A DNA stretch of 64,000 nucleotides, taken from assembly GCF_964355755.1 (NCBI RefSeq), contig NC_092677.1, positions 11,244,601 through 11,308,600 of the forward strand, given 5' to 3'. Below are positions 7,636 through 52,102 of the stretch, one piece after another. The notes below the pieces were generated by a model that saw only the letters and a list, made by a program, of their open reading frames with translations, had not been told where the DNA came from and did no database searches. The position numbers and the translations under genes are program-made. The first letter of the stretch is position 1. Each line of letters starts with the position of its first letter. Source of the DNA: Antedon mediterranea (Eukaryota > Echinodermata > Crinoidea > Comatulida > Antedonidae).

Positions 7636-8728
7636 TTATGTAGCATATTCTGACACCATTTTGTGTTTGAAATTAGATTTAAAACTAGAAAAGGAAGATT
7701 TCTGTTTAAGTTCATTTGAGAGTGAAGTCCAAAGTTTGGGACCAAAATAATACATAGAAAATCGTCGAGCCTTAACATTTAAATTATCAAGGATATAATT
7801 GTTAACAGAGGATCGGGTTTTATAGGAATGGCGTTCGTCAATTCTTGTAAATAAAGCATTAAAATGTGAAGGCAGTAAATTGTTAGATAAACGGTACATA
7901 AATGAGGCAACTTGTAATTTATTTAAATCATAAATGTTTAAAACGTTAAATCTTTTAAAAAGTAATTTTGTATGGGCTCTAAATGATTCTCCCGCGCAAA
8001 TCCGAAGTGCACGTTTTTGTAGTTTAAAAAGGCGGTCAATTTGAGTTTTCTCTAGACTTGTCCAGGGGCATAACGTATTAAATTTATCTAGAGTAATTGC
8101 CCAACATAAATTGGCATAAGAAAGGTAAGGCAAAACTAAAGTATTATAAAGGGTTAATAAGGTTTTTTGAGGGAAGATATGTTTTAATTTGTTCAATATT
8201 CCAACATTTCTAGAAACTAGATTACTGATTTTATTTATATGTAGTTTCCAAGTCAGAGAGGCATCTATGGTTACTCCTAAAAATTGGGTTTCATTAACTC
8301 GTTTGATCATTTTATTATCAATGTATATTTGTTCATTTAAAGAATTTGAAATTTTACGTTTAGAAAATATTATATAGTTCGTTTTGAATGTATTAAGAGT
8401 TAATTTATTGTGTTTGAGCCAATTTGAAACTTTAAGTAACTCATCATTGACAATTTTAAACAAGGTATTTAATTTAGGATGAGAGAAAAAAATATTTGTG
8501 TCGTCAGCAAATAAGATAAAATTTAGTAATTTAGAGCTGTTTGGTATATCGTTAACAAAAATCAGGAATAAGAGTGGTCCAAGAATCGATCCTTGGGGAA
8601 CACCACAGGTTAAACGGGAATAGGAAGAGTTAAAATTATTTAAGGAAGTAAACTGAACACGATTGGAAAGGTAGCTTTTAATTAGTTTTAAAGGAAGGCC
8701 TCTGATACCGTAATTTGAACATTCCGAT
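7636..8728 (-). pseudogene. Reverse transcriptase, C-terminal fragment (LINE ORF2)
   Basis: The frame is open for about 363 codons but has no initiator of its own. Motifs in order are SYLSNRVQF, then GVPQGSILGPLLFLIFVND (reverse-transcriptase block 4), then FADDTNIF (catalytic block 5), then QFLGVTID (block 7) and the thumb-like YNTLVLPYLSYANLCW and LQKRALRI. This order is typical of Jockey/CR1-like LINE elements. The endonuclease and fingers are missing, so the fragment cannot encode a working enzyme. The absence of stops suggests a fairly recent insertion. Confidence 0.85.
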
Positions 8729-12232: not shown

Positions 12233-15200
12233 ATGACTATATACGTACAGAGAGGAGAATGTAGTGCCAGATATCACATTGCAATACTGTTAGTTCTTTT
12301 GACGGTTGGTAGTAAGTAGCTCTTAAAATTGTTTTAGTTAAAAACAAAGGTAGACTAAAATGTTTTATTCTAAATACTTATGTTTCACCTTTCTCTTTTC
12401 CAGCCAGAATTTATCGAGAATACATTCCATACATTTGAGGCCACTCGCCGAGTGGGCATCGTCTATTCACATTGCCGATAAAAATTCCTACTTTATCTAT
12501 TATGTTACGTTTCGCTACGATTCATGCACCGTTTAAAAAAGTCTATAAATAGACCTACAAACAAATAAAATAGTACTTGGCTTTAAGTCAACAAGACGGA
12601 AATGCTGTAGGCCTAGATAGGCAATTGTACTAAACTTACTTACCCTAACCAGCATGCATTTCGAGCTAACGTCTAAAAATATAAGTATAATAAATCGTAT
12701 CCGGATATTCACCCCCTGGACATTTACCCCCCCCCCCCGGAAAACTACCCCCCGGACAACCACCACCTGGACAACTACCCCCTTAGGACAACTACCCCTT
12801 TAGGACAACTACCCCCCGGACAAATACCCCCCGGACAACTACCCCCTTAGGACAACAACCGCCTTAGGACAACTACCCCCTGGACAACTACCCTCCGGAC
12901 AATTACCCCCTAGGAACAATTACCCCTAGGAACAATTACCCCTGACAATTACCCCCTCCCCCGGGTAAATACCCCGCGGACATCTACCCCACCCAGACCA
13001 TTCAACAACCTGACTCTGCAACAGTGTATTATAGGAATTAATAACTATATTTTAATTCGTTACTTAGACGAATTACTATTCATTATTGTAAACAAAAGTA
13101 AAAGATTGAACATAATTATAGCCTGGTATAAACTGAAGATTGTCACACATGATCATAGGATAGTCGAACGTATTTTATAGTACTCCCTGTATTTACTGTA
13201 AAGACTGGTTCGCTAATAATAATAATAATATTTTTTGCGTCAGGACAATGCTTCGATAACCACTGGTCTTAAAAGAATTAATTTTTGTCTCAAATTTGTC
13301 ATATATGTATTTTTGTACACTTGATGAATAATATCACTTTTGATATTTGACCTCAATGTTCACTCACCGAGTAAACGGCGATCTTTAAATAAATTCCCCT
13401 CAACTTAAACGGTGACCATGTTACTCCCATGAAACATCATATGGAATAATCGGCGTCTATTTCCATTAGATTATACCCCCTCCCATTGAATAAACAACTT
13501 TCTTCCAATAAATGTCCACGTACCTAAAAACCACCTGAACAATAAACAGCCCAGGCCGTTTTTTCAATAAATACGGTACTTTAAATCTAGCACATCTATG
13601 GTCTAGTGTGCTGTTAAACAGAATAATCGGTTAAAAACGGGTGTTTCGAAACTAGAGACCCGAGACCAGAGACCAGAGACCCGAGAGTGGGGTCTCCCTT
13701 TTCGTATAGTGGGGTCTCCATTTTCGTACGTGGGTCTCCCTTTTCGTATATTTAGGTCTCCCTTTTCATATTGGGTCTCGTGTCAGGTCTCTAGTCTCGG
13801 GTCTCTAGTTTCGAAACACCCGTTAAAAACAGATGATTTCATTTTTACAGAAACCGGTGTCTATTTCCATTAGATTATACCCCCTCCCATTGAATAAACA
13901 ACTTTCTTCCAATAAATGTCCACCTAAAAACCACCTGAACAATAAACAGCCCAGGCCGTTTTTTCAATAAATACGGTACTTTAAATCTAGCACATCTAGG
14001 GTCTACCGTGCTGTTAAACAGAATAATCGGTTAAAAACGGGTGTTTCGAAACTAGAGACCCAAGACGAGACCAGAGACCCAATACGAAAAGGGAGACCTA
14101 AATATACGAAAAGGGAGACCCACGTACGAAAAGGGAGACCCCACTATACGAAAAGGGAGACCCCACTATACGGAAAGGAGACCCTAATATACGAAAAGGG
14201 AGACCTAAATATACGAAAAGGGAGACCCAAATATACGAAAAGGGAGACCCAAATATACAAAATGGGAGACCCAAATATACGAAAAGGGAGACTCACTATA
14301 AGAAAAGGGAGACCCCACTATACGAAAAGAGAGACCACACTATACGAAAAGGGAGACCCTAATATACGAAAAGGGAGACCCAAATATAGGTCTCCCTTTT
14401 CGTATTGGGTCTCGTGTCAGGTCTCTGGTCTCGGGTCTCTAGTTTCGAAACACCCGTTAAAAACAGATGATTTCATTTTTACAGAAACCGGTGTCTATAT
14501 ATTTGTCTACTTTTGGATTGGGGGGGGGGGGGGAGTTGACCGGGGGTAGTTGACCGGGGGGTAGTTGACCGGGGTAGTTGACCGGGGTAGTTACCTGGGG
14601 GGTAGTTATCCTAAGGGGGTAGTTGTCCTAAGGAGGTAGTTGTCCGGGGGGTAGTTGTCCGGGGGTAGTTGTCCGGGGGTTGTTATCCTAAGGAGGTAGT
14701 TGTCCGGGGAGTAGTTGTCCGGGGAGTAGTTGTCCGGGGGGTAGTTGTCCTAAGGGGGGTTGTTGTCCGGGTGGTAAACATCCGGGGGTAACTGTCTAGG
14801 GGGTAGGTGTCTAGTGGGTAGGTGTCCTAGATAATAAATAATTATCTAGGACACCTACCCCCTAATTATCTAGGACACCTACCCCCTAGACACCTACTAC
14901 CCCCCCCCCCCTAGACAGTTACCCCCCGGATGTAAATATACTCAAAACTTTTTTTTTTAAAAAAGCGGCCGCCGCCGCGTGTCGTAACCGGCACCTTCAC
15001 CACGTGTCGTCATCACGTGTGCAAATTCAACAGACAGCGCGAGCAGTAGTCTAGTTAGCAGCACATGTAGCAGAAGATCTCGACAGGAACTGAGGAACAT
15101 AAAATTAGAAATACAATTATCATAAAATTAGGACTACCTACAGTAGTAGTAGACGCAGCTCCGGCTAGGCCCCCGGCTAGGCCCCAAAACCAAGACAACG

Positions 15201-16877
15201 TAAGTAAGCCCATTAGGCATTACATTAGTTAAACTTAGCTTAAACATGCGCACTAGAGAGGCCTAGCTAGTAAAGTGGCCAGGGCTAGACTATATAGACT
15301 CTAGGCCTCCTACCTAGATAGGCTAGAGGGCCTAGATAAATAGTATTTTAATAGGCCTAAGGCTAGGCTACGTTTAATGTAGTAGGCCGCGCCTAGTTAT
15401 TTTAAATAGCCTGAGAAATGTTCATTTAATAGTACGGTACCGTTCCGTATCCATACTTCTGGCTACTGATTCAATGAAGGCTGATGCCAGGGTAGGCTGG
15501 GAAATGTTCATTTCTAGATACGGTACCGTACCGTATCCATACTTCTGGCTACTGATTCAGTGAAGGCTGATGCCAGGCTTAGGCTGGGCCTACGTAGTAA
15601 CGGTGGTGCCAGCACTACAAACGAACCCTTCCCGGCCAGTTGTAATCGGAATCAAAAGATATTCGCGTATTTCGCTCCAAGTACGCTGTTACAAAGAATG
15701 CAATGATATAATGTTAAGTATACGAAGTCGGACGGTACGTTTGGGAAAACGACTAGTAGTAGGCCTATATTAGTAGGCCTAATCTACTACATTTCGGCAA
15801 ACGTCACACGACGAAGGTGACCAAGTTTGTTTAGAATACGTATATATCATTACAAAATAACAAAAGGTCTACATGTATTATTTAGGAGAGCTTTTCCTGC
15901 AATATTTTCAATCCATCTTGCAGGTAATGTTGCATATGACATACGCTTAGTGAACGGTAATTCAAAACATGAGGGTCGTGTTGAAATACTCGTGGACGGT
16001 AGTTGGGGCACGATATGTGATACAAATTGGTGGGTAGCAGAAAGCGATGCCGTATGTAAAAAGCTAGGCTATGAACATGGATCTCACACGTATAAAGGAG
16101 CCCATTTCGGTGAAGGACCGGATCAGATTTTGTTCTACAGCGTTAATTGTAGTAAAGGTATGGACTTTGATGACTGCCATTTTGAGCCTACGTCGATTCA
16201 ACCTTGTTCACATCATCGTGATGTTGGAGTAAAATGTAATACCGGCGAGGATGATGATGGTAAGTTTTAAACATCCTAATAAAAAAAGTTGTCTAACAAC
16301 GTTTAAGACGTACTCAAGAAACAATATGCAATTAGAAAAAAATTCTCCAATCATTTAATTTATATGCTGCTAATTAGAACTTTACAGCTTAACCTATAGG
16401 CAATCTATACAGTAAAAAAAATCACCATAAGTGTTTTAAAGACTTAATGTTCAACAAACTCTCTATAGACCTAAAAAATTAAACATTTTAAATGTGATTG
16501 AAAAAATTCATCTCCTTCCCAAATTGAGAAAGTGCGATGCTAACGCACGAAACGTTGGTAAGTTTCAACGTTTATTTTTCACCTTCATGAAAAACGAAAA
16601 TTTGATTTCAAAAATTTTAAATGTGAATTGATATCTTTTAATAGGTTCTGGTAACAACAAAATGTTGGTGGGCGTAATAGTCATTGTTCTGTTAGTTATT
16701 GTCTGTCTGATCTTCGGAATTCATATAATCCGCAACAGAAGAAGAGCTCGTAATGAGCATGCGCATCGCAGAATTAAATCAGAAGAAGAGGAACAACAGA
16801 CAAAGCCTATTAATGAAAAGGAACTTATAGAAAATGAAGCACAAAAACCTGAAGAAACCGAAACGAAAGACGTTTAG
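12233..16877 (+). CDS. Single-SRCR-domain type I membrane receptor (gene A)
   Basis: Probable cell-surface receptor; ligand unknown. Exons: 12233-12311 (signal peptide), 15924-16259 (SRCR domain) and 16645-16877 (transmembrane helix and tail, TAG), total 215 residues. All introns are phase 1. Exon 1 encodes a basic start and a hydrophobic core IAILLVLLTVG. The SRCR domain runs from VAYDIRLVNG through GSWGTICDTNWW, AVCKKLGY and FDDC to DVGVKC, with six cysteines as in group A, but in one exon. The last exon has MLVGVIVIVLLVIVCLIFGI as membrane helix, then a basic stop-transfer RNRRRAR and a Glu/Lys-rich tail of about 45 residues without obvious signalling motifs. The paralogue at 30.1-32.3 kb shares exon layout and phases, which supports the remote exon 1. 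Alternatively a different 5' exon is used, because the SRCR frame is open upstream to 15827. Confidence 0.75.
12700..14940. repeat. Nested inverted minisatellite complex in the SRCR-A intron
   Basis: Four layers are visible. (1) A C-rich array of GGACAACTACCCCC units at 12713-12990. (2) Its inverse, GGGGTAGTTGTCC units, at 14520-14820, ending in a short foldback at 14850-14935. (3) Between them a roughly 200-bp direct duplication (13455-13660 and 13855-14062) starting TCTATTTCCATTAGATTATA. (4) An array of TATACGAAAAGGGAGACCC units at 14075-14395, with inverted units (GGTCTCCCTTTTCGTA) at 13690-13780 and 14390-14410. GTTTCGAAACTAGAGACC and its inverse bracket the inner modules at 13645/13805 and 14045/14440. 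A run of about 14 G lies at 14520. Confidence 0.9.
15413..15585. repeat. Tandem duplication of about 90 bp
   Basis: Two copies of GAAATGTTCATTT followed by ACGGTACCG, CCATACTTCTGGCTACTGAT and GAAGGCTGATGCCAGG, within the SRCR-A intron. The neighbouring 15000-15400 is rich in CTAGGC/TAGGCCTA words and holds nothing else recognised. Confidence 0.8.
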
Positions 16878-17336: not shown

Positions 17337-20300
17337 TCAAAGTTGACTTTGAGCAACGGTTGAATGTCCTGCTGCCGTCATCGCGTTAGTACTTTTAGTC
17401 CCCTGTTGTAAAAAAAAAATCAATTAACTTAGATAATAGGTAAACACATTACACAGATAGGAAATTGATCTAATAATACTCAGTAGTGATTAATGACTAT
17501 AACTCTGTACTTACCTGAGAGGTCGATAGATCTTTGATCTTGTTGTTCCATCGAAAGTGTTTTGCCATCCATTTTTTGCCAGCTCCGCAGATCTGTAAAA
17601 TAATATTTATCTATAATATAAATGATAACTAAAAACAAAATAATCAGTAATATAACGGTAAAAACTCAATCATTGCCAATGGTTTTACTAAAAATAACCA
17701 ACAGAACATCTCGTGATTTCGTATTTTTATAAGGCCTATATGTTTTTTTTTTGCTACTGACCTCATTGTCCAGCAGGCAGCAAACAACAAATACAAAAAC
17801 ACCTTGTAAAGAGTTCAGAATATTAAAGAGGTAGACAACAAACAGGCTCGCGTTGGCAAACGCTCCCAATACCCACGTCACACCCAGAATAGGGAGAAGT
17901 ACGAAGCTTCCTCTGACAGCGGTTCTAAAAATGGCAATGTCAGGGTGTTAAAATATGGGGAAACATGTATCTGTACTTTATATTTTGCTAAGTTTCTCTA
18001 GTATTGTCACCATAATATTGTAATGTAGATCACCTTGAGGTGGTTTCATAAAAGATACTCAAAATCACTGATTTATACCAGTGGTATCTGCATATGACAA
18101 TATTTGTCTAGTATCATAGACAAATTCTGTAATACAGCATCCCATGTGTTCAGATATGATGCCTGTATCATGGACGGTTAAGTTAAGAGTTAGGTTATGA
18201 ATTAATACATGATTTACATATGTTTCACCTAAGATACTGTATCACGAAAGTTGCCTGGTCAAATTTAGAAACAGTACCGAGAATCGGCTACTATGGCTCT
18301 GTCACTGACAGTCAGATATCAAACTGTACATATTCATTGAAACAGCTAATAAGCTACTCTTTTTAGATCTAAATAATACGAGGTATACCGCTCAACTTAA
18401 CTTACCATATTCATTATTTTTATCAATAGGCCTATATTTCCCTAAACAGGTCACGAATTTCCTTAATACCAAGTTATTATTTTTCTCCGTTGTGGCATAA
18501 CCACAACTTCATCTATTACAATACGTAGTTATACCACGAAGGAAATGAATAACTCATATATATTGATATACACAATTATCTTATTATTGACACATTGTTG
18601 TTGGCCAGATTGTTACGGATATAGAACTTTGTATGCATTTAATTTGTATTGATTATTTCTAATTTCAACAAATTTCATCCGTTAATAATGATATTTTCCT
18701 TTCTTGGCACATTAGATTGATTATAGAAAATTTACATTATAATGAGGTTTTATTTTAATTATTATATGCAGTATGCCCAGCCTATCCTAGATTGTATAAC
18801 TGTTATTAGGTTTTACCAAATTGCTTTTTCAAATCAAATTATTTTACTTATTTATGATTGACAGATCTCTCTCATTTTTCTTGTACAGTTTGTAAGATAA
18901 TTATAATGTAACATTAAGATACATTGCCTTACATTCGTTGTATATGATTTTTTTATTCTTGTTATAAATTTCAGTAACTTTAAACTCATTTAAGTCTGCG
19001 ATGAATCTTTCCAATACAAAACAGGCACATGTATTATTTTAAAATTTCATTTTGAGTATAACGAAATATGTTGATACAGTAGCATGCTTGGTTGTCTCCG
19101 ATTCAGTTCATAGGGCCTAACAGACAAGACAGAACTAAACAAATTTCGTTACCTTAGTTGTTTATATTCCTTTTGTATCTTCGGCGGTTTTCTTAACATT
19201 GGTCCCGATCTTTTGTAAATAACGTAAACCATTTTTGCCAATACTACTATATTTACCTGTAATAATTGTAATATAAATTTATGAATTGTGACTTGCGAGT
19301 TTGTGACAATGGTGTTCCAGTGTACGCTGTAGGTTCTCTGTACAAACAGACACAGTTTTATTTATTTAATGTTGTTGAAATAAAAGCTTACCCCAACTAT
19401 TAAAAGTGCTGGAATTGCAAAAACCAATCGGCAGCTACTTCTCAGCCAGCACCTAAAATGTAATGAAGATCGTAACCTCAACTTGATATTAGTTTTTGGT
19501 GGTTGTTTTTATGGTCTCCCGGAGCCAACTGCATGGTCACACTTAATATGTTAAACAATTTATTCGAACTATAACTCTCCTCCTCTAACGTACTTCCGGT
19601 TATTCACATTCCCTTATCGGTATCTATCAACTCTTACGCACTTCATCCATCGTTTTCTTTCCAACTTGGCCACCTAGCATCTCGAATCCAAATCCAACCT
19701 GTTCCGTCTCTCAAAGCAATAGGCACACTCTTCCACTCTCAAGCAATCTCTCTACTTCCACCTCTCAAAATAATTTAGTGAGCTGTCTCTTACATTGTTT
19801 CAGTGACATAACAGTCATATCTGACTGCAGCAAACACGCCGATGAAACATGCTGGTGTCAGGTAACAAAATAGCATATAATGCATCAGCTTCAATTTGTT
19901 GGATGCGTTCTTGATCACCTTAATGACAAGAAAACATGCTTCCGCCAGCATCCACATGAACATGCAGAAGATGAGATAGTGCAGAAGAATCGCAACGAAC
20001 TTACACGACTATAATAGAATAAACAATAAGCATTTACGTCGCTTTGTCAGTCAGTCTTTCGGTATCGGGCAACTACTCTATCTTTGTCATTGAATGTCAC
20101 TGATCTCACCAGTACTAGTGGTTTATGGGTCATTCTTTCAACCATTACCTTTTGTTCTGTTTTGTTAATGGCTGTCAGAAAGAGCAAGTCAACACCAAGC
20201 ATACACACAATGAGATTGACGTGGATCTTGTGACGCACAGACATTTTGTCACATCTACCAATAAAAGAAGAGGAGAAAGTGAATCATAAGCCTCTTTCTC

Positions 20301-23300
20301 TTTCATTTATTTGTTAAAAGTGTCCAAATTGACACCTATATCTGATCATAATGTTAGGGCCTACATGAGATTCGAATTTTTTAACAAGCTACTTTGGGAG
20401 TTGCGAGCATGGTTCGATATCATTTTAAAACAACCGCCGCTACTGTCTGGTCTCCTAGTTTAGTGACAGTGAACCGTTAACATGTATCAAATCACCGTCA
20501 AGCTAGATACAACGTCAGGCCAGACTATGTTAATGGTGGTTGCAGCTTTTCAGACATATCGAAGAACACTGGCCTAGCATACTTTGGAAATATTACAGGT
20601 GGACCACGACCTATCAGTACGCGCTTTTATTGTGATGACTATGATGATTCTATGGAGTAAAGTAGTGAATTAATGGAAGGCAGGCTAAGGTTGTTAAACG
20701 AATTAAATACCTCAATACAACATATACCAATAGACATATTATCAACGTCACAACCGAGAGGCTTAGTCCAATTATTGTAATCCAGGAATTTATGACGTCG
20801 TCTTTTGCTGACACCTTAAAAGGTAAGAAAACATACGGTATAAATGTGTTTGTAGTCCCTGTTATTACTTATTATTACTAATGTCGAACTGTGTTAGATT
20901 GCCTTAGTTAAAACAAAGTAGGCCTATATACCTCATCATCCGAGACTTGCATAAGAACAGCAAAGCTTGTCATATGAGAACAGAAACAGTGAATAACCTG
21001 TGTTGTAGAATTGTAGTTGAGCATCTGACATCCTCTTGTTGACCATTTGCTGAAAGTTGAACACAAGTTATTTTTCGAACTGAACTTATAATAATTATTC
21101 TCACGGAATCTCGAATATTTGTGTCAAACTGTCGATTTTAGGCGTATTAGTATGATGTAAAGGATTTTCCACATTATTATTTTCATGATACCGTACATGC
21201 GTTGCAATTGAAACATCATGAGGTGCTGTATCACGGAGTTGTCCAGGAAACTGGACAAATCCAGATACAGTACCTTGTTCGGATAACATTTTGGTGAGTA
21301 CCCGGTCTGTAGATTGCATTCAGTTTTTAAATTTTATGCTACAACGACGAAATATAATTACCTCGATTTTATATCGTAAAATACACACAGAGAATTCTTT
21401 TCTATATATTCTGATGATTCCTGTAAGAGAAAGGTATTGTATTATTCACTCCGACTGATTTTGTCATCATGCATCTGGATTATTGTTTTCTCATTTTTTT
21501 AAATATAAAGTTTGCGGTACAACACGTATATTAGTTCTGAAAAGAACATTTTATGATGTGCTTCATTGTTATTGAAGAGTTTATTGTAAACTTCTGTACT
21601 TTTTCTAAAAGGTAGTTTGTTTAGCTTACATTAAATGGGTTGATCGGTAAACTTAACTCCACTTGTCCGGCAATAAGGGTGTCGTTTATTCCATAGATAC
21701 TTATCGATAATAACCCACTTATGAGTATAAATATATCATCTCCATCGTGTAAATCATTGCTGCAAAATTAATATTATTGCTCATACCATGGATAAATAAA
21801 ATAAATAATATTAAATAATATTTTTTTCCTCCATGATCATACATATTAGTAAATGGAAAAAATAGCTCTTGTTTGTACAGATTAAATTAACCATGATGGT
21901 CCTGGTCATCGCAAATTGAAAGCTCCCTAAGTTAGTGGAACTTTGAGAGAGAAGAGAAGAAAATTAAAAAGAATCCATTATGAATTGTAACAGTCAGAGT
22001 GACATGGTTAAAGATCATTACAGACGATTTACCATTTTTGTATCAATATATTAACGGGTATGTCGGGTCCGTTAGCCACTAATCACGTTCAAAATAGATT
22101 ATATCAAAGTATTAACGTTTTACTTACGTCGTGTGATCATAATCTACGTAGACATCTGGTCCGTTAGCCACTACGTCACGTTCAAAATAGATTATATCAA
22201 AGTATTAACGTTTTACTTACGTCGTGTGATCATAATCTACGTAGACATCTGGTCCGTTAGCCACTACGTCACGTTCAAAATAGACAGAAACCAGTACCGG
22301 TACCACTATATAGTTTTCTATTAAAACATAAAATATTTAAATCGTTTATGTTATATTTCAATGAGGTATGGCGTTAGTGACGAGCAGGTTAATCAAAAGA
22401 GTACATTTAAAATTCTGTAAATTATAATTTATCCCGTATAACATTAATTTCAATATCAGTTAAACTGGTAACCTTGGCATTTTACGCTTTCGCCTGTGGG
22501 ATAATTGTTAGAATACACGATTGTTTGATTACCTATAGGACTTTTTCTAAAGTATTACTTGCTATTGTCTGTATGTTTATTTACACGTTAACGTCCACAA
22601 TTTAAAGTTATCATCCTGGTTTTGTTTATATAAGCATATAACAGACACTGTAATGAAAATATATTAATATTGGTACTTCACAAAACGTTTTGAAATCTCG
22701 AGTTATCTTCTTCAATATGATACGAAATATTATATAACACGTCCTCTGTTGTTTCTTCATTTTGTATATGCATTCTGTATATTGCTTATAGGAGTCCCTT
22801 AGTTTGGGTTTCAGACGGAGTTTTGATTTAATATTAGATAAATATATTGGCACACATGGCGTTTCATACGTGTACTCGAAATAACTACAGACTTAGGGAA
22901 AGTCTCTAGGAGTCCCTGTTTCTAAATGCAAAATTTAGTTTTTTACCTTCGTTTGGCGAAACTTTAACACTGAAAAACACGGATTTGTCGTTGGCAGTTT
23001 TAATCTCCTGGTGAACGACGCTACTTGTTTTGCCAATCCATGAGGCCTTTGAATCTGAATTTAATTTCACGGAATTTAGGTATCAAACATAATTATGCAA
23101 CGATAATTCCGATTATAATTTTTTGTATACGGTAATTGTTTATTACAATGGAAAACATAATTTAGTCTTTCTCTGTTAAAAGATGAGACAATTACTGAAT
23201 TTTATTACCCTGGTAAAAATGATAAAAATAACATGTGATTTATTTCTGTCATCGATAAAAAAATGGAAGTCGTCGACCAAAATATTTGTTTTAGGAAACA

Positions 23301-26019
23301 CGACTGCTGTAGTTGTACCAGTGTACTACTAAGAAAAGTGCGTTATACATTTATTTTTTGAAGTATAAAACTCACAGACTGACTGGTGCTCAAAAGATAT
23401 AACATCACTTTCTGTACTCCTCAGAGCATGAACAATATCAACTTCTTTTGATGCCATCCATGAACTCAGTGTTTGCCCAGCCTTTATATGAAATAACAAT
23501 AACTGCATTTAGTATATAGCAAATTTTTATATTTTAGTTTGTAAGAGATAATATGAATAAAAAAAAACATTAGCGAGACCAACCTGCATTTCTTCTTCTG
23601 AAGAAGCTGTCCGAGAAGGACAGTGAAATTGCCAAGCAGGTTAGTATCGTTAACTTTTGGTTCTTTCGAAAATAATTAATAATGACTATCCAAAACCAGA
23701 GGTTTTTATCATATGAGATAATATTGTATGCACTTTTTATTTTATTTCAACTACATCCAACAGCGAAAAAATCTCCAATTATAGGATGCCTTAAACATAT
23801 TTTGATATAAATATTTACGTTAAAACACAGAAAAATATGTAACATACAAAATGGTAAACGTAGCTGTAAAAACTTTAGATTAAAAAATTGACAAACTGTA
23901 AAAAAAACAATATTGAATCGTTTCTTAGCATATGCGCTTAAGAAACACCATATCCAAAGAAATGACAGATAAAACAAAAAGAAATGAATGAGAAATGAAA
24001 ATAAAGATAACTAGTGGGGTTTAAGTCGAGATTAAAGGGAGAGAGAGAGAGAGAGGTTCATCGGAAGTTGGTTCCAGGGCTTCTAGCAAAAATCAGTCGG
24101 TATTCAGAAGACAATTTAGAGTTTGTTAGAGAAAAAAGCATTAAAATTAAAACTTACAATATTACCGTCGGCAGAAAGAAACAGGATCTCCGTAGTTGAT
24201 GCCGCAGTTGACGGTAACGGCTCGCTGGTAGTTTTAATGGATGTTGTCGGTGTCGCCGTTGTCGGGTTTGCTGTTGTTGATGTCGCCGTTGTCGGGTTTG
24301 CTGTTGTTGATGTCGCCGTTGTCAGGTTTGCTGTTGTTGATGTCGCCGTTGTCGGGTTTGCTGTTGTTGATGTCGCCGTTGTCAGGTTTGCTGTTGTTGA
24401 TGTCGCCGTTGTCGGGTTTGCTGTTGTTGATGTCGCCGTTGTCGGGTTTGCTGTTGTTGATGTCGCCGTTGTCAGGTTTGCTGTTGTTGATGTCGCCGTT
24501 GTCGGGTTTGCTGTTGTTGCTACTACAAACACAACAATATAATACTATGTAGAGGTGATTCTAAAGCTTTGTCAACACTAGTTTGACAAAATAGTGTTAT
24601 GTGCCCAAATATGGTATTGATATGACATCATCGTGTTCCATATATGGACACATCACATTAAACATAAATGTGTAGACAGAGCTTTAGACAACATAGGCTA
24701 CACGACGATGTTCTAATAATACTGAAAACAAACTTATCGTAGAGTTGATTTTTTTAAAGTTTCCTAGTAGTAAAGTAAAATATAAAAAAAATATTACCTT
24801 TACATCCAATAACTTCAAATCGTAAACTGACATGGCCACTCCACCCCGTTGGATTGATACGGATGAAGCGAGCCAAGACAGACTGATAAAATGTGTTTGT
24901 TACCTGGGTATTACTATCCGAATTTCCTGGAAAAGCCTAAAAGATCGTCACCAGTACTTTATGAACAATTACAGAAAACTATATACAAATACAGGTAATT
25001 CATATCGCCATTTGCCTAAATAATTAGCCTACGTACCGCTTCTGATCCAAACTCATCCACTATATTTTGCAACGGTAAACTGATATCAGTCGTGTAAAGA
25101 ACTTTGTATGACGTCACGTAAAAAGACGCATGACTTCTTCCTTGTGTTATTACTCCAGTTACTTTGTTGATTTCTAGAAGATCAGCTTGTATCCATTGGT
25201 TATTGTCTTGAGCACCTGCAGTCCAACCTCCTCTTCCCCCACCATCATGTTGCATATTAAGACGTCCACGATCGGCTCTACGTTCGTAATTGTATTCACT
25301 AGAAGCCGTCAGCTCTGCAGTTCCCTGTTCAACGCCAAGAGCTTCGGGCGCTGTACATGACTCCGTTGCCGCTGCAAGACAAAGATGATAATGATTGGAA
25401 TTTTTTTTCAGTAACATAAGCCTATTCATATAGCGTCGTTCGATGAGGTAAAAGTTTTTTGTTTTTTTTGACAACCTAAAAACTACGCCCGACGCTATCT
25501 CAAGACGACTTGTCTCGTCGGGATGATTCAAGGCAACTCAGACGGTATTGTACGACGAGGCTCGACGAAATGTCTTGACTTGTCGTGCTGTTGAATCCCT
25601 ACGAGACTAGTCCTCTTGAGACAGCGTCGTGCGTAGTTTTTAGGTCGTCGGTAGAACAATCAACATTTTTTTTCTTCCGACGAGACGATTGGTCGCTGTC
25701 TGAGTTTTGGAAAATTATAGACCTTGTAACAAACATTGAATAATTTACGTTTAGACAGAACGGACACTATTACTGCAAAGGGGACGAAGACAAACATTTC
25801 CAACCGTTGTTCATCTTTACAAATCCGAAATTCTTTTTATAAAAGAAAGCAACACATTTATGTCATATACTTTTTAATGTATAACGTTTTAATGATCAGC
25901 TGGTTGGAAGAAAACAAAAGATAAGGAAGAATAAGCCACAAGGAGACAAAATCGTTCTTACCGAACACACTCACGGACAACACGATACCAGACAACACGA
26001 TACCAATCAACAGGTTCAT
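17337..26019 (-). CDS. Adhesion GPCR with discoidin (F5/8C) domain and Thr-rich stalk
   Basis: Cell-surface adhesion receptor. Exons in gene order: 26019-25962, 25371-25037, 24936-24798, 24522-24166, 23606-23584, 23481-23376, 23054-22947, a link not firmly resolved, 21717-21630, 21420-21362, 21049-20932, 20814-20711, 20254-20149, 20008-19794, 19452-19392, 19256-19153, 17924-17762, 17592-17515 and 17402-17337 (TGA); about 770 residues. Signal peptide MNLLIGIVLSGIVLS; F5/8C domain from CTAPEALGVEQG through QWIQADLL and VTGVITQGR to RFEVIGC; a Thr/Ala/Pro stalk of 10-residue repeats; a GAIN region; GPS with CVFYD, KWSTRGC and CFCSHMTSF, which keeps the His-x-Thr cleavage site. The seven helices include KIHVNLIVCMLGVDLLFL (TM2), LLHYLIFCMFMWML (TM3), CWLRSSC before TM5, and VLLPILGVTWVLGAF with YLFNILNSLQGVFVF (TM6-7). 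The cytoplasmic tail is short. The link between 22947 and 21717 needs about 28 nt to keep frame; a weak candidate micro-exon is at about 22459-22486. Confidence 0.85.
18100..18290. repeat. Degenerate GTATCATA repeat copy
   Basis: Contains AATTCTGTAATACAG, GATGCCTGTATCATGGAC, GGTTAAGTTAAGAGTTAGG and AGTACCGAGAATCGGCT, matching in the same order the copy at 28740-28960. It lies in a large adhesion-GPCR intron. Confidence 0.6.
22066..22290. repeat. Tandem repeat of about 92 bp, 2.5 copies
   Basis: GTCCGTTAGCCACTA starts units at about 22068, 22159 and 22252. Each includes ACGTTCAAAATAGATTATAT and ACTTACGTCGTGTGATCATA. It is intronic in the adhesion GPCR. Confidence 0.85.
24249..24520 (-). repeat. 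30-bp coding minisatellite (GPCR stalk)
   Basis: About nine head-to-tail 30-bp units, alternating a single G/A variant, lie entirely inside one exon of the adhesion GPCR. On the coding strand each unit encodes ten residues of the form TTANPTTATS or TTANLTTATS, a Thr-rich, mucin-like stretch expected to be O-glycosylated. Because 30 is a multiple of three, copy-number change would keep frame. Confidence 0.9.
24560..24690. mobile_element. MITE, family with AAAGCTCTGTCTACAC termini (copy 2)
   Basis: The left end is AAAGCTTTGTCAACACTAG and the right end GTGTAGACAGAGCTTT, with ATATGGTATTGATATGACATCA inside in shortened form. It is intronic in the adhesion GPCR. Confidence 0.7.
25475..25643. mobile_element. 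MITE-like element with about 35-bp terminal inverted repeats
   Basis: The left arm starts CCTAAAAACTACGC and continues CGACGCTATCTCAAGACGAC. The right arm is the inverse, ending GCGTAGTTTTTAGG. The interior is rich in TCGTCG/ACGACGAG words. A half copy lies at 7098-7190. It is in the intron before the discoidin exon. Confidence 0.75.
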
Positions 26020-30128: not shown

Positions 30129-32277
30129 CTACGCAACTCTGTGATCCAATGATTCTTCGTATGTAGGCGGTACACTTGATGTATCTGATGGTGGTGCAAT
30201 CACATTAGGTGCCGTGTAAGGAGGGGGTGGTTCTCCTGTATATGGTACAGTCTCCTCAATCGACATGTGATCACCAACACACGGATCATCGCCCGACGAT
30301 AGTGGAGGATCTATCACATCACGACGTCTTCTATCCTCTTCACTGCCTTGTCTATGAAAGCTACTATAAGTCCCATTTAACTGGGATTGTTCGCCTGTTG
30401 TTAAAGGCGGCGGTATTATATCGCTATTATAAGGAAAATTATGAAACTGTGATGGCGATTCCGGTGGTGCTGTATCTGAAATTTCTGAATATGCTGGACA
30501 TGGATCGACTGTCATTATTGTGGGCATGTCCACATAATTGGGTGTCTGTGCAAATTGAGGTTCTTGTCGCACTGTTTGCGTCCGATTCGGGTAGCGATGG
30601 TGTCTTTTAATCCCACAAAACAACATTAGGACAGACAGGAGACCGAATGTTCCAAGTCCAATACTAGTTAATCCAACACTTGTGTTATCTTTATTATGTA
30701 TAAAAAAAGAGAAGCTTAGTTGAGTAATCACATTTTGACATACATCAAAGCTTATTATTTTAGGATAAAAATGAAAACAAAAATTATTTGTTATGTATAC
30801 TACAGTACAGGATCCCTGTAGTAAGGAGACACTTAGATAGGGGTTCCTGTTTACGCAGGGAACACCGATATGGTTTCCCATAAATACGGGGTGTCAGATG
30901 GAAGGGATTCTGCTGTCATTTTCTTTTCAAATGTTTTCTTTCTTTTTCATATTTAGGCCTATATTTTTTTTTGTGTAAAAACAATCAATGTTGTTTGAAC
31001 GAGTTTTACTCACCAGTCTCGTGAATAAATAAAGTGTATTTATATATATATATATATATATATAAATAAAATAAATAAATAAATAAAATAACAGCAGAAA
31101 ACTTGGTTACATATATATATATATCAGTGACGTTGGTAAATATGTTCAAGAAACTTACCACCATCTTCCTCACCCTCACCCTCACCGGTATTACATCTTA
31201 CTCCAACTTCACGATGATATGAACAAGGTTGAATCGACGTCGTGGGAACAAACTTGCAGTCATCAAATGCCATGCCTGTAATACATTGAACGCTGTAGAA
31301 CAAAACCGGACTTTGTCCTTTTTCAAAATGGGCGCGTTTATACGTTTGAGATCCAGGTGCAAAGCCTAGTTTTACACATACCGCATCACTCTCTTCTGTC
31401 CACCAGTCTGTATCGCATATCGTCCCCCAATCGCCGTCGTCCACGCGTATTTCAACACGGCCCTCAAATTTACTTTCTGAATTTCCTTGCATTAACCTCA
31501 ATTCATAGACAGCATTACCTATACAAGATTGATGACATGTTCTCATATTAATAATATATCTGTAATATCTAACGTTTGTAAAGTAAATATAAATAGTAAA
31601 CATTAGACTATACTCTTGATAACCAAAAAGAAACCTAAACCCACACCCCCACCCCAGTTTAAATCCTCCTAGATACTAACTATTCCGGTTTTGATGTGTC
31701 CTATTAAAAAGATTGACTGTAGGGAATAATCTCTCAAATAGAATGTACACGTCTTTAGTTATACGTTTCTAATATCAGTTTCCTAAAGATCATTGTTTAT
31801 AGGAAAAGGACCCATAAAATATATGGCAAAACTCTAGGGGCAGGGCTGGGGCAAGGTGTCAAAATTTGTCAAACATATATTTAACACGCCCACGTACCTC
31901 TAGCTCCTTCGCAAGGCCCTGTTTGGAACAGGTTGTGTGTAGGAAAAGGACCCCATAAAATGCTACTCTCACTGAGAGTAAATTCAGAAGAATCTTAGAT
32001 TGGAGCAGCAAATTGTAAAACTCTTAATTGAGAATGATTTTCTCAAATCTACACTTAATCTAAAATGTCTGTACGGATATTTTAACGTGACGTGATGCTA
32101 CTAATATTAAGACTGACGTAATGGAAAAGAGTTAGATAGCAAAATAAAATAATTTGAGATAGACATTTCGTGACTAATAAAACTGGGCCCGGATGAAAGG
32201 AACTTACCACCAACGACCATCGACGTCAAACACGCTAAAAATACTATGACTTTGGTTCGTCCCTTTTTTGTTGTCAT
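30129..32277 (-). CDS. Single-SRCR membrane receptor with PPxY cytoplasmic tail (gene B)
   Basis: Paralogue of the SRCR receptor at 12.2-16.9 kb, on the opposite strand. Exons: 32277-32208 (signal peptide MTTKKGRTKVIVFLACLTSM), 31518-31159 (SRCR) and 30688-30129 (membrane helix and tail, TAG); 329 residues, all introns phase 1. The SRCR domain runs from VYELRLMQGN through WGTICDTDWW, AVCVKLGF and FDDCKF to EVGVRCN with six cysteines, followed by an acidic linker. The membrane helix is about TSIGLGTFGLLSVLMLFCGI, then basic KRHHR. The tail of about 150 residues is Pro/Ser-rich with PPPPY and PPTYEES near the C-terminus, which match PPxY, the ligand of WW domains (known for Nedd4-family ubiquitin ligases). 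YVDM and PAYSEI could be Tyr-based signals. This tail is unrelated to that of gene A. The exon-3 acceptor (AAAG at 30689) is not ideal but keeps frame. Confidence 0.8.
31040..31125. repeat. TA / TAAA microsatellites
   Basis: A TA run at 31040-31064, AAATAAAT repeats to about 31090, and a second TA run at 31112-31125, in the last SRCR-B intron. Confidence 0.9.
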
Positions 32278-47289: not shown

Positions 47290-47880
47290 AAAGTGTTATT
47301 GTGATATTAGAAATCTTTCGCTTTGCGATCACCTAGATCATACTCGAATATCTTGTCGGTTGTTGCCTGAACCTACAATCCGTCAATACCATTAAGTGTT
47401 ATTGTGATATTAGAAATCTTTCACTTTGCGATCACCTAGAACATTGTGTTGTCGGTCGTTGCCTGAACCTACAATCCGTCAATACCATTAAGTGTTATTG
47501 TGATATTAGAAATCTTTCGCTTTGCGATCACCTAGAACATTGTGTTGTCGGTCGTTGCCTGAACCTACAATCCGTCAATACCATTAAGTGTTATTGTGAT
47601 ACTAGAAATCTGTCGCTTTGCGATCACCTAGAACATTGTGTTGTCGGTCGTTGCCTGAACCTACAATCCGTCAATACCATTAAGTGTTATTGTGATACTA
47701 GAAATCTTTCGCTTTGCGATCACCTAGAACATTGTGTTGTCGGTCTTTGCCTGAACCTACAATCCGTCAATACCATTATTAAGTGTTATTGTGATATTAG
47801 AAATCTTTCGCTTTGCGATCACCTAGAACATTGTGTTGTCGGTCGTTGTGTGAACCAAGAAGCCGTCAATACCGGAATCT
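47290..47880. repeat. Tandem repeat, six copies of a 96-bp unit
   Basis: GTGTTATTGTGATA begins units at about 47293, 47396, 47492, 47588, 47684 and 47783 (spacing 103, 96, 96, 96, 99). Units also share TTTGCGATCACCTAGA, TTGTCGGTCGTTGCCTGAAC and CTACAATCCGTCAATACC. The first unit differs (ATCATACTCGAATATC) and the last has a changed end, as in an array growing in the middle. It lies about 0.9 kb after the PEDS1 stop, perhaps in its 3' UTR. Confidence 0.92.
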
Positions 47881-49987
47881 AGTGAGAAATGACGTCCCCA
47901 CATGTGCACAATAAAATAACATGATAATAATACTAGTTTAAAGTCGTCTAATTCTGGTTTTAAGAGAGTTGATATTGATTATGATTACATTGATCATGAT
48001 GCTTTTGATTTCAAGATTATTATGATCATATTAATTATGATTCATATAATAAATAATGGTGTTGATTGTATTTATTATGTGGATGGGAACATATTATCAA
48101 TCAATCAAAGTAACATTTATTTCTCTTATAATTTAATAGTAAATAGAAATTAACAGTAAATATGATTAAAATAAGAAGGGCAAAATTCCAAGAAAGCGAA
48201 ACTTGTATAAGGCAGCACATAAAACTGAAAAAGAAAACCGGACAACACAGGGTTGTTGATTGTTTGACTACTACGTGCACCAAATTTAGATCCTTTGTTT
48301 TGTGTTATATGGTTGTTAAACTGTATATTAATATGAAGGATATAATAAGTCTAGATTACAGCAACTCCTAATTTGTTAATCTAAATATACATTGTAATTC
48401 CAAAGGATATTAACTTTTATAACCCCACATGATTTCACTATATGATACAGAACACTGTAAGTAAGGTCTATGTGATTTAACAGAGCATCGAATATTATCA
48501 ATATTAAAATAATTCATTGCATAAATTTGCTACCACTATTCACTTGTTGCAGGTAGTCGACGACGTTGGATACAATAATAATTTAAATTACTAGTACTAA
48601 TACACTTATAAGCTAGGACCATCCTTTTATTAATGATTTAGGGACCATGTTCTATTTCAACTAGAAATTTACATTTTAATTTAGGATATTGAGCAATATT
48701 AAATTGGTAACATAGGTTTGAGGAATCGGTAATTGGTTAATGGTTTCAATTCTGAAAGCTGTTTATTCGAACGATTACAAATTTTGATTGTTTCAAATCC
48801 CATTATATGTGATTATTTTCTTTTATAAAGAGTATCTTTTGTGTAAATTTGTTTTATGATCAATGTGAAAAAAAGATAGAAAACCAAGGGTACAGCAATG
48901 GTAAATCCTTTAAAGAAAAAAAAATTCTTGATGAGGAAACTAAATTAAAAATATTTAATAGTTTGAGGGGAAAATGTTTAAGGGAAAATATGTTTGAAGG
49001 AAAAAATATTTGAGGAAAAACTGTTTGTTTGCAGGCACCGTTTTTATTTTAATGGGCTACTACCATTAAATGTTTTTCAGTATCTTGGCAGATGATATTT
49101 ATTTATTATTGTAATACATAATTATTGTACATGTGTTGAGGCCATGCTAAACATAAAGGTATATTTTACATTGTGTGTGAATTATTAGTTGTATTATCGT
49201 TTAGTTTGGTTACTAAAAAAAATAATGTTATGCGAGTGCCTTTTGGCCTATTTAATGGGCAAATATTAAAATGCAGTATTTTGGCTTATTTATAACTTGG
49301 TTTAGATTATTGAACAGTTAATATTATAATACTATGTAATAGTGTGATTTGTTTTTGAACAACTCGCATGCACCTAATATTTGGTGCACTGAACCATGAA
49401 ATGCAATTTAGGGTTCTGACATTTTTAACATGGTATGTTTAGGCAAAATAATAAAAATGTGTTAGTTTCAAGTCCGGTTTTTAAATTATTTTTTGGATAA
49501 GGGCTTTATTATTAATATTCATGATTGTGTGATGTACTAATATATGAGAATGATTCAAAAGTCCAGTTACACACTTCAGAATGCTTGAAAACCGCAATCA
49601 TGCAATTTTTATAGATAATTGATTTATTATTTACAAATTTTTAATGAAAGGAAGTGAAATTAACATTTTTTTTATTTCGCCTTGATTATTGGTTGAAATA
49701 TTTAGTTATTATGCAGATGTATGTTGGTTTTTAAAAAAAAATATATTTTTATTAGTTCAATGAAATAAGTTTATGCCGAAGGTTTGCTGTACAAAGAGTG
49801 TGATATTATTCCATATTAGGATATTTTTTTATTTTGCTATGATGTATACATTTTTAATCCTCTATGGCCACCGCGGCTGGTAGAACAGTGACACATTTTG
49901 ATTTAACAGTAGTTTCTAGACTCCAACAACTTAGACCCTTGTTGAAAACCATCATGTTTTTTTCCTATGTGACATCTCAATAGTCTC

Positions 49988-51317: not shown

Positions 51318-51935
51318 GCTCCAAGTATAGAGATATTATACTATCTCTATGCTCTAAGTATAGAGATATTATACTATCTCTATGCTCCAAGTATAGAGAT
51401 ATTATACTATCTCTATGCTCTAAGTATAGAGATATTATACTATCTCTATGCTCTAAGTATAGAGATATATACTATCTCTATGCTCTAAGTATAGAGATAT
51501 ATACTATCTCTATGCTCTAAGTATAGAGATATTATACTATCTCTATGCTCTAAGTATAGAGATATTATACTATCTCTATGCTCCAAGTATAGAGATATTA
51601 TACTATCTCTATGCTCTAAGTATAGAGATATTATACTATCTCTATGCTCTAAGTATAGAGATATTATAATATCTCTATGCTCCAAGTATAGAGATATTAT
51701 ACTATCTCTATGCTCGAAGTATAGAGATATTATAATATCTCTATGCTCTAAGTATAGAGATATTATACTATCTCTATGCTCCAAGTATAGAGACATTATA
51801 CTATCTCTATGCTCCAAGTATAGAGATATTATACTATCTCTATGCTCCAAGTATAGAGATATTATACTATCTCTATGCTCTAAGTATAGAGATATTATAC
51901 TATCTCTATGCTCTAAGTATAGAGATAGTATATCT
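51318..51935. repeat. Hairpin satellite, about 18 copies of a 33-bp unit
   Basis: Each unit consists of a spacer GCTCYAAGT and an inverted repeat ATAGAGATA-TTATAC-TATCTCTAT. Unit-to-unit variation is small (C/T in the spacer, loss of TAT in two units, CATTAT once). Each unit can therefore fold on its own, and the long open frame it creates (an 11-residue repeat) is a by-product of the 33-base period. It starts next to a truncated TTAAAGATG-family MITE (51233-51315). Confidence 0.95.
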
Positions 51936-52102
51936 ATTTATTGTCTTTTTTTATGTTAGTTCACCACTGTTGACGTTTCGATTTTTGTCTGGAAGCTCAC
52001 GTAATATTCGTATGAAAACGCCATGTGTGCAAACAAATATTATCTTTTTACTAATATTAAGTCACAACTCCGTCTGAACCCAGACTATTAACCTACTAAC
52101 GC

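Follow-up and report, generated by a model that had tools for sequence, protein, structure and literature searches.

Do the discoidin (F5/8 type C) exons that lie upstream of seven receptor helices in the crinoid Antedon mediterranea belong to the same gene as those helices, or do two genes adjoin here? The locus falls within a 64,000-nucleotide stretch of the genome (GCF_964355755.1, NC_092677.1, positions 11,244,601 to 11,308,600), hereafter the window, to which coordinates without a prefix refer. Rebuilding the gene from the raw sequence yielded a corrected minus-strand model of 18 exons, 26019–17337, with a single 803-aa reading frame (CDS of 2,412 nt, one stop, none internal); all introns are GT-AG, and phases agree at 17 of the 17 junctions (Table 1). 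Start and stop are unchanged from the original prediction, and all the elements that it had named (leader, F5/8C domain, Thr-rich stalk, GPS with HMT site, seven helices) were recovered where it had placed them on this strand, TM1–TM7 being spread over six exons (20814–17762). The product is best explained as an intact adhesion GPCR (class B2) with a discoidin head, a Thr-rich stalk, a predicted self-cleaving GAIN domain, a tethered agonist and a head that would be exchangeable, a reading to which we assign a probability of about 0.88 on the sequence evidence.

Table 1. Exons of the receptor gene (window coordinates) and related loci of the same genome
Feature	Location	Strand	Basis
Exon 1: ATG at 26019, signal-peptide-like leader MNLLIGIVLSGIVLSVSVFA, phase 1 donor	25962..26019	-	Hydrophobicity by inspection; leader-like ORF and splice signals only
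Exon 2: first two thirds of the F5/8 type C (discoidin) domain	25037..25371	-	Pfam PF00754
Exon 3: last third of the F5/8 type C domain; phase 1 end after ...EVIGCK	24798..24936	-	Pfam PF00754
Exon 4: Thr-rich mucin-like stalk, 122 aa	24158..24522	-	Gene model; homologous position in paralogue
30-bp minisatellite inside exon 4, 9.3 copies, encoding TTANPTTATS repeats	24242..24519	-	TRF score 521
Exon 5: putative GAIN (SSWMASKEVDIVHAL)	23376..23481	-	Gene model; homologous exon in C5 paralogue
Exon 6: putative GAIN	22947..23054	-	Gene model; paralogue homologue (ASWIGNATNIKEEID)
Exon 7: putative GAIN	22221..22317	-	Gene model
Exon 8: putative GAIN (LISGLLSISIYG)	21630..21759	-	Gene model
Exon 9: putative GAIN / GPS start (CVFYD)	21362..21420	-	Gene model, Pfam
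Exon 10: GPS, HMT site, tethered agonist TSFAVLMQVSDDE	20932..21049	-	Pfam PF01825
Exon 11: TM1	20711..20814	-	Gene model, Pfam
Exon 12: TM2	20149..20254	-	Gene model
Exon 13: TM3-TM4, WMLAE motif	19794..20008	-	Gene model
Exon 14: extracellular loop 2 Cys-Trp, TM5 first half	19392..19452	-	Gene model
Exon 15: TM5 second half, intracellular loop 3	19153..19256	-	Gene model
Exon 16: TM6-TM7	17762..17924	-	Gene model
Exon 17: cytoplasmic tail	17515..17592	-	Gene model
Exon 18: tail end (...VAQSQL), TGA stop at 17337	17337..17402	-	Gene model
Trio of adhesion GPCR genes headed by tandem WSC domains (L011-L016)	C5:1.749-1.766, 11.842-11.859, 11.887-11.904 Mb
F5/8C-then-GPS loci L017, L018	C11
F5/8C-then-GPS locus L019/L020, two F5/8C domains	C3
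F5/8C-then-GPS locus L021, two F5/8C domains	C6
F5/8C-then-GPS loci L022, L023, L036/L024	C7

A putative exon at 23662–23584, included in a first model of 19 exons, was dropped; it clashes in phase with 23481–23376, and L013 on C5, the closest of the paralogues examined, shows that it is unneeded. There, a gtaagt donor closes the S/T-rich exon in phase 0, and the following exon that can be recognised (IDFSPISWIASEEP..., homologous to AGQTLSSWMASKEV...) also begins in phase 0, with no recognisable exon between the two. When the equivalent strong gtaagt donor at 24158 is used in the window gene, the stalk exon likewise ends in phase 0 and joins 23481–23376, and the clash disappears.

On the 803-aa product, Pfam places F5_F8_type_C (PF00754, residues 40–173, E = 2.7e-24), GPS (PF01825, residues 457–498, E = 3.5e-11) and 7tm_2 (PF00002, residues 516–746, E = 2.4e-39) in that order, each above its curated cut-off and well beyond chance. 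The nearest PDB sequences are ADGRL3 (2.1e-45) and ADGRD1 for the helices and ADGRF1/L3/D1 for the GPS, and the latrophilins (ADGRL) and ADGRD1, the closest solved 7TM/GPS sequences, resemble the window receptor at the family level only. Of the SUEL lectin, olfactomedin and HRM domains of the vertebrate ADGRL subfamily, Pfam detects none in the 803-aa model. ADGRL proteins, too, carry a lectin-type head; that of the window receptor is a discoidin domain. The putative GAIN part upstream of the GPS has no Pfam or PDB match of its own; its assignment to GAIN is suggested by its position, by exon homology to paralogues and by the GPS motif.

In the GPS, the Cys/Trp pattern is present, and both the cleavage site CFCSHM/TSF (slash at the cut) and the tethered agonist TSFAVLM are intact. 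Adhesion GPCRs cleave themselves in the GAIN domain at the GPS; the two fragments remain associated until the tethered agonist is exposed by release or by flexing (PMC12716839, PMC9672506). Since the HM/T site and TSFAVLM are kept, self-cleavage and tethered-agonist signaling are most likely the mode of the window protein, by analogy with the family. From family knowledge, GAIN would cut itself at HM/T in the secretory pathway, and the discoidin head, on a probably O-glycosylated stalk, would bind some ligand, be it matrix, glycan or cell-surface. The tethered agonist, freed or exposed by tension or by that binding, would then insert into the 7TM bundle and activate a G protein. At the end of the short tail, the terminal SQL would presumably fit a class I PDZ ligand.

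In the putative GAIN region, a 93-bp tandem duplication (22066–22284; 2.4 copies, 98%) repeats the 3' part of exon 7 and its splice donor in the following intron; splicing from a donor copy further down would run into a stop. This partial duplication could be taken as a mark of a decaying or pseudogenised receptor copy, which we regard as highly improbable, given that all splice sites are canonical, the frame holds no internal stop, and the 7TM, GPS and tethered-agonist motifs are intact.

The discoidin domain itself is complete, covering positions 2–127 of the 127 in the PF00754 profile, and is flanked by cysteines (SC...IGCK). Its nearest PDB sequences are neuropilin-1 b1 and the factor V/VIII C domains (1.6e-31); neuropilin b1/b2, the factor V/VIII C domains and the discoidin domains of DDR1/2 belong to the same fold family, with flanking cysteines. 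Ligands of such domains include collagen, phospholipids and glycans, and the window head may bind one of these. Neuropilins, factors V/VIII and DDR1/2, unlike the window receptor, lack a GAIN domain and are no GPCRs; DDR1/2 likewise carry a discoidin head on a signaling receptor. The leader ends in phase 1 and the stalk starts in phase 1, and the discoidin head is a symmetric phase 1-1 module.

Do these exons join the helices? Very probably they do, judging from four features of the sequence: the phases match, the GPCR part would otherwise be leaderless, the arrangement recurs at other loci, and the closest paralogues fill the same slot with WSC exons. Seven other loci of the genome have F5/8C exons upstream of a GPS, on the same strand and within 10 kb (Table 1). 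These seven pairs lie far above the approximately 0.35 expected by chance, a rough upper estimate by our own arithmetic from the 163 F5/8C and 150 GPS matches that the 354 Mb contain, which clustering blurs. A separate secreted discoidin protein (24798–26019) beside an adhesion GPCR with a short N terminus is disfavored on this evidence, and we think it quite unlikely. Many discoidin clusters of the genome (on C2, C10 and C8) do lie without a nearby GPS match, and reading on past exon 3 meets a stop after about 15 residues; on the other hand, exons 3 and 4 are joined by phase-compatible splice sites, no AATAAA or ATTAAA occurs on the gene strand between exon 3 (24798) and exon 4 (24522), and two genes would leave the GPCR part without a signal peptide and would have to account for the repetition at seven loci and for the shared phase-1 slot. 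The one-gene adhesion-GPCR reading of the original prediction thus gains from the matching phases, from the nearness of the helices to ADGRL3 and ADGRD1 and from the discoidin-GPS order elsewhere in the genome; what weakened was its hint that the head might be new, discoidin being already listed for amphioxus adhesion GPCRs (PMC2246102).

Between the discoidin and GAIN lies the exon 4 stalk, 43% Thr and 11% Ser over its 122 aa, most of whose sequence comes from the 30-bp minisatellite. Because several frames of this repeat, on either strand, are open, exon 4 could be an intronic minisatellite misread as coding, with discoidin joined directly to GAIN. There is very little room for such a misreading: when exon 4 is removed, phase 1 meets phase 0 and the frame is broken; its 3' side contains non-repeat T/S-rich sequence; and Thr-rich repeat stalks built of different units stand at the same place in L021, L022 and L023, where each follows a discoidin head.

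The relatives of the receptor were placed in a maximum likelihood tree of 17 loci, built on their GPS, TM1, TM2, TM3-4 and TM6-7 exons. The window receptor is sister to the three WSC-headed receptors on C5 (UFBoot 100), with which it shares 60.6–62.3% identity over 236 positions (GPS and TM exons). This trio has WSC domains upstream and no detected discoidin. Its exon structure is similar to that of the window gene, and the WSC exons (phase 1 at both ends in L013/L014) occupy the same phase-1 head slot; however, two WSC domains stand where the window gene has discoidin, and a short S/T-rich exon stands where it has the repeat stalk. For the other related receptors, heads were assigned by same-strand position upstream of the GPS and not from full gene models. 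On that assignment, the wider clade (UFBoot 97) includes discoidin-headed receptors on C3 and C6, a C10 receptor downstream of a C-type lectin domain (L033:6230-6832) and a C3 receptor downstream of SUEL lectin and HYR domains (L032:4830-6031), each on the same strand.

Heads thus seem to have been swapped between receptors, with discoidin and WSC on close relatives; the family would share one GAIN-7TM chassis, and the head, whether discoidin, WSC, C-type lectin or SUEL lectin, would have evolved as a phase 1-1 exon module open to exchange. The discoidin/WSC change may have gone either way: C5:19103601, the closest outgroup, is weakly placed itself (UFBoot 59), and its head is unreadable because much of the upstream stretch is N. 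More tentatively, and with the odds rather against it, the set may be a lineage-expanded one in which symmetric phase-1 exon shuffling exchanged carbohydrate-type heads (discoidin, WSC, C-type lectin and SUEL lectin) on a single GAIN-7TM chassis whose Thr-rich stalks are made of repeats, giving diversified surface-recognition receptors, possibly for immunity or self/non-self recognition.

Two further loci deserve mention. At L037 (C11:1075500-1085400), exons for WSC, Thr-rich repeat and discoidin occur together in two adjoining sets, and no GPS match is listed closer than 100 kb; these sets possibly encode non-GPCR proteins, and the locus may have supplied both head modules. In the C3 receptor L019/L020, an 817-aa open frame lies between the discoidin exons and the GPS (joined, minus strand, 11585-9135), possibly a very long stalk.

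The discoidin-headed architecture is already known in kind: discoidin (DS) is among the N-terminal domains of amphioxus adhesion GPCRs and absent from the human set (Nordstrom et al. 2008, PMC2246102, Fig. 2 legend). The amphioxus Adhesion family resembles the crinoid genome in its discoidin heads, its C-type lectin heads and its domain-shuffling reading; discoidin is named there in the figure legend only, with domain order and number not comparable with the window receptor, and WSC, in contrast to the crinoid relatives, is absent from the legend's domain list. A text search for literature pairing F5/8 type C with 7tm_2 or adhesion GPCRs returned nothing relevant, and discoidin is mentioned neither in the accessible part of a 2026 adhesion GPCR review nor in a sponge GPCR paper. 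For WSC domains and adhesion GPCRs, a search of partial coverage gave only a review of polycystin-1 and a fungal paper on another subject, and the WSC-headed 7tm_2 sister group may be undescribed. Polycystin-1 (PC1) combines WSC and C-type lectin domains with GAIN/GPS (PMC9672506), as do the relatives of the window gene, but it is an 11-TM protein and ion channel subunit instead of a 7tm_2 receptor, with no mention of a discoidin head.

These receptors bear on how adhesion GPCRs acquire new ligands. A close pair with 61–62% identical 7TM/GPS exons and different heads, discoidin versus WSC, amounts to a natural domain-swap experiment; exchanging head and chassis could show whether ligand choice lies in the head alone, with the tethered-agonist mechanism unchanged.

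Elsewhere in the window, an SRCR-domain gene lies on either side of the receptor, at 15821–16270 (+) and 31124–31675 (-) (Pfam SRCR, 9.5e-23 and 2e-17); after the former comes what may be a single transmembrane exon, near 16632–16877. Tandem repeats at 13971–14549, 47337–47882 and 51485–51959 contain long open frames (e.g., SLYLEHRDSII, CVVGRCLNLQSVNTIKCYCDIRNLSLCDHLEH) and are probably non-coding satellites. By inspection alone, an open frame at 7636–8727 (-) looks like a LINE reverse transcriptase, and the octamer TAGGCCTA occurs 34 times in positions 1–64000, against 0.65 expected from base composition.
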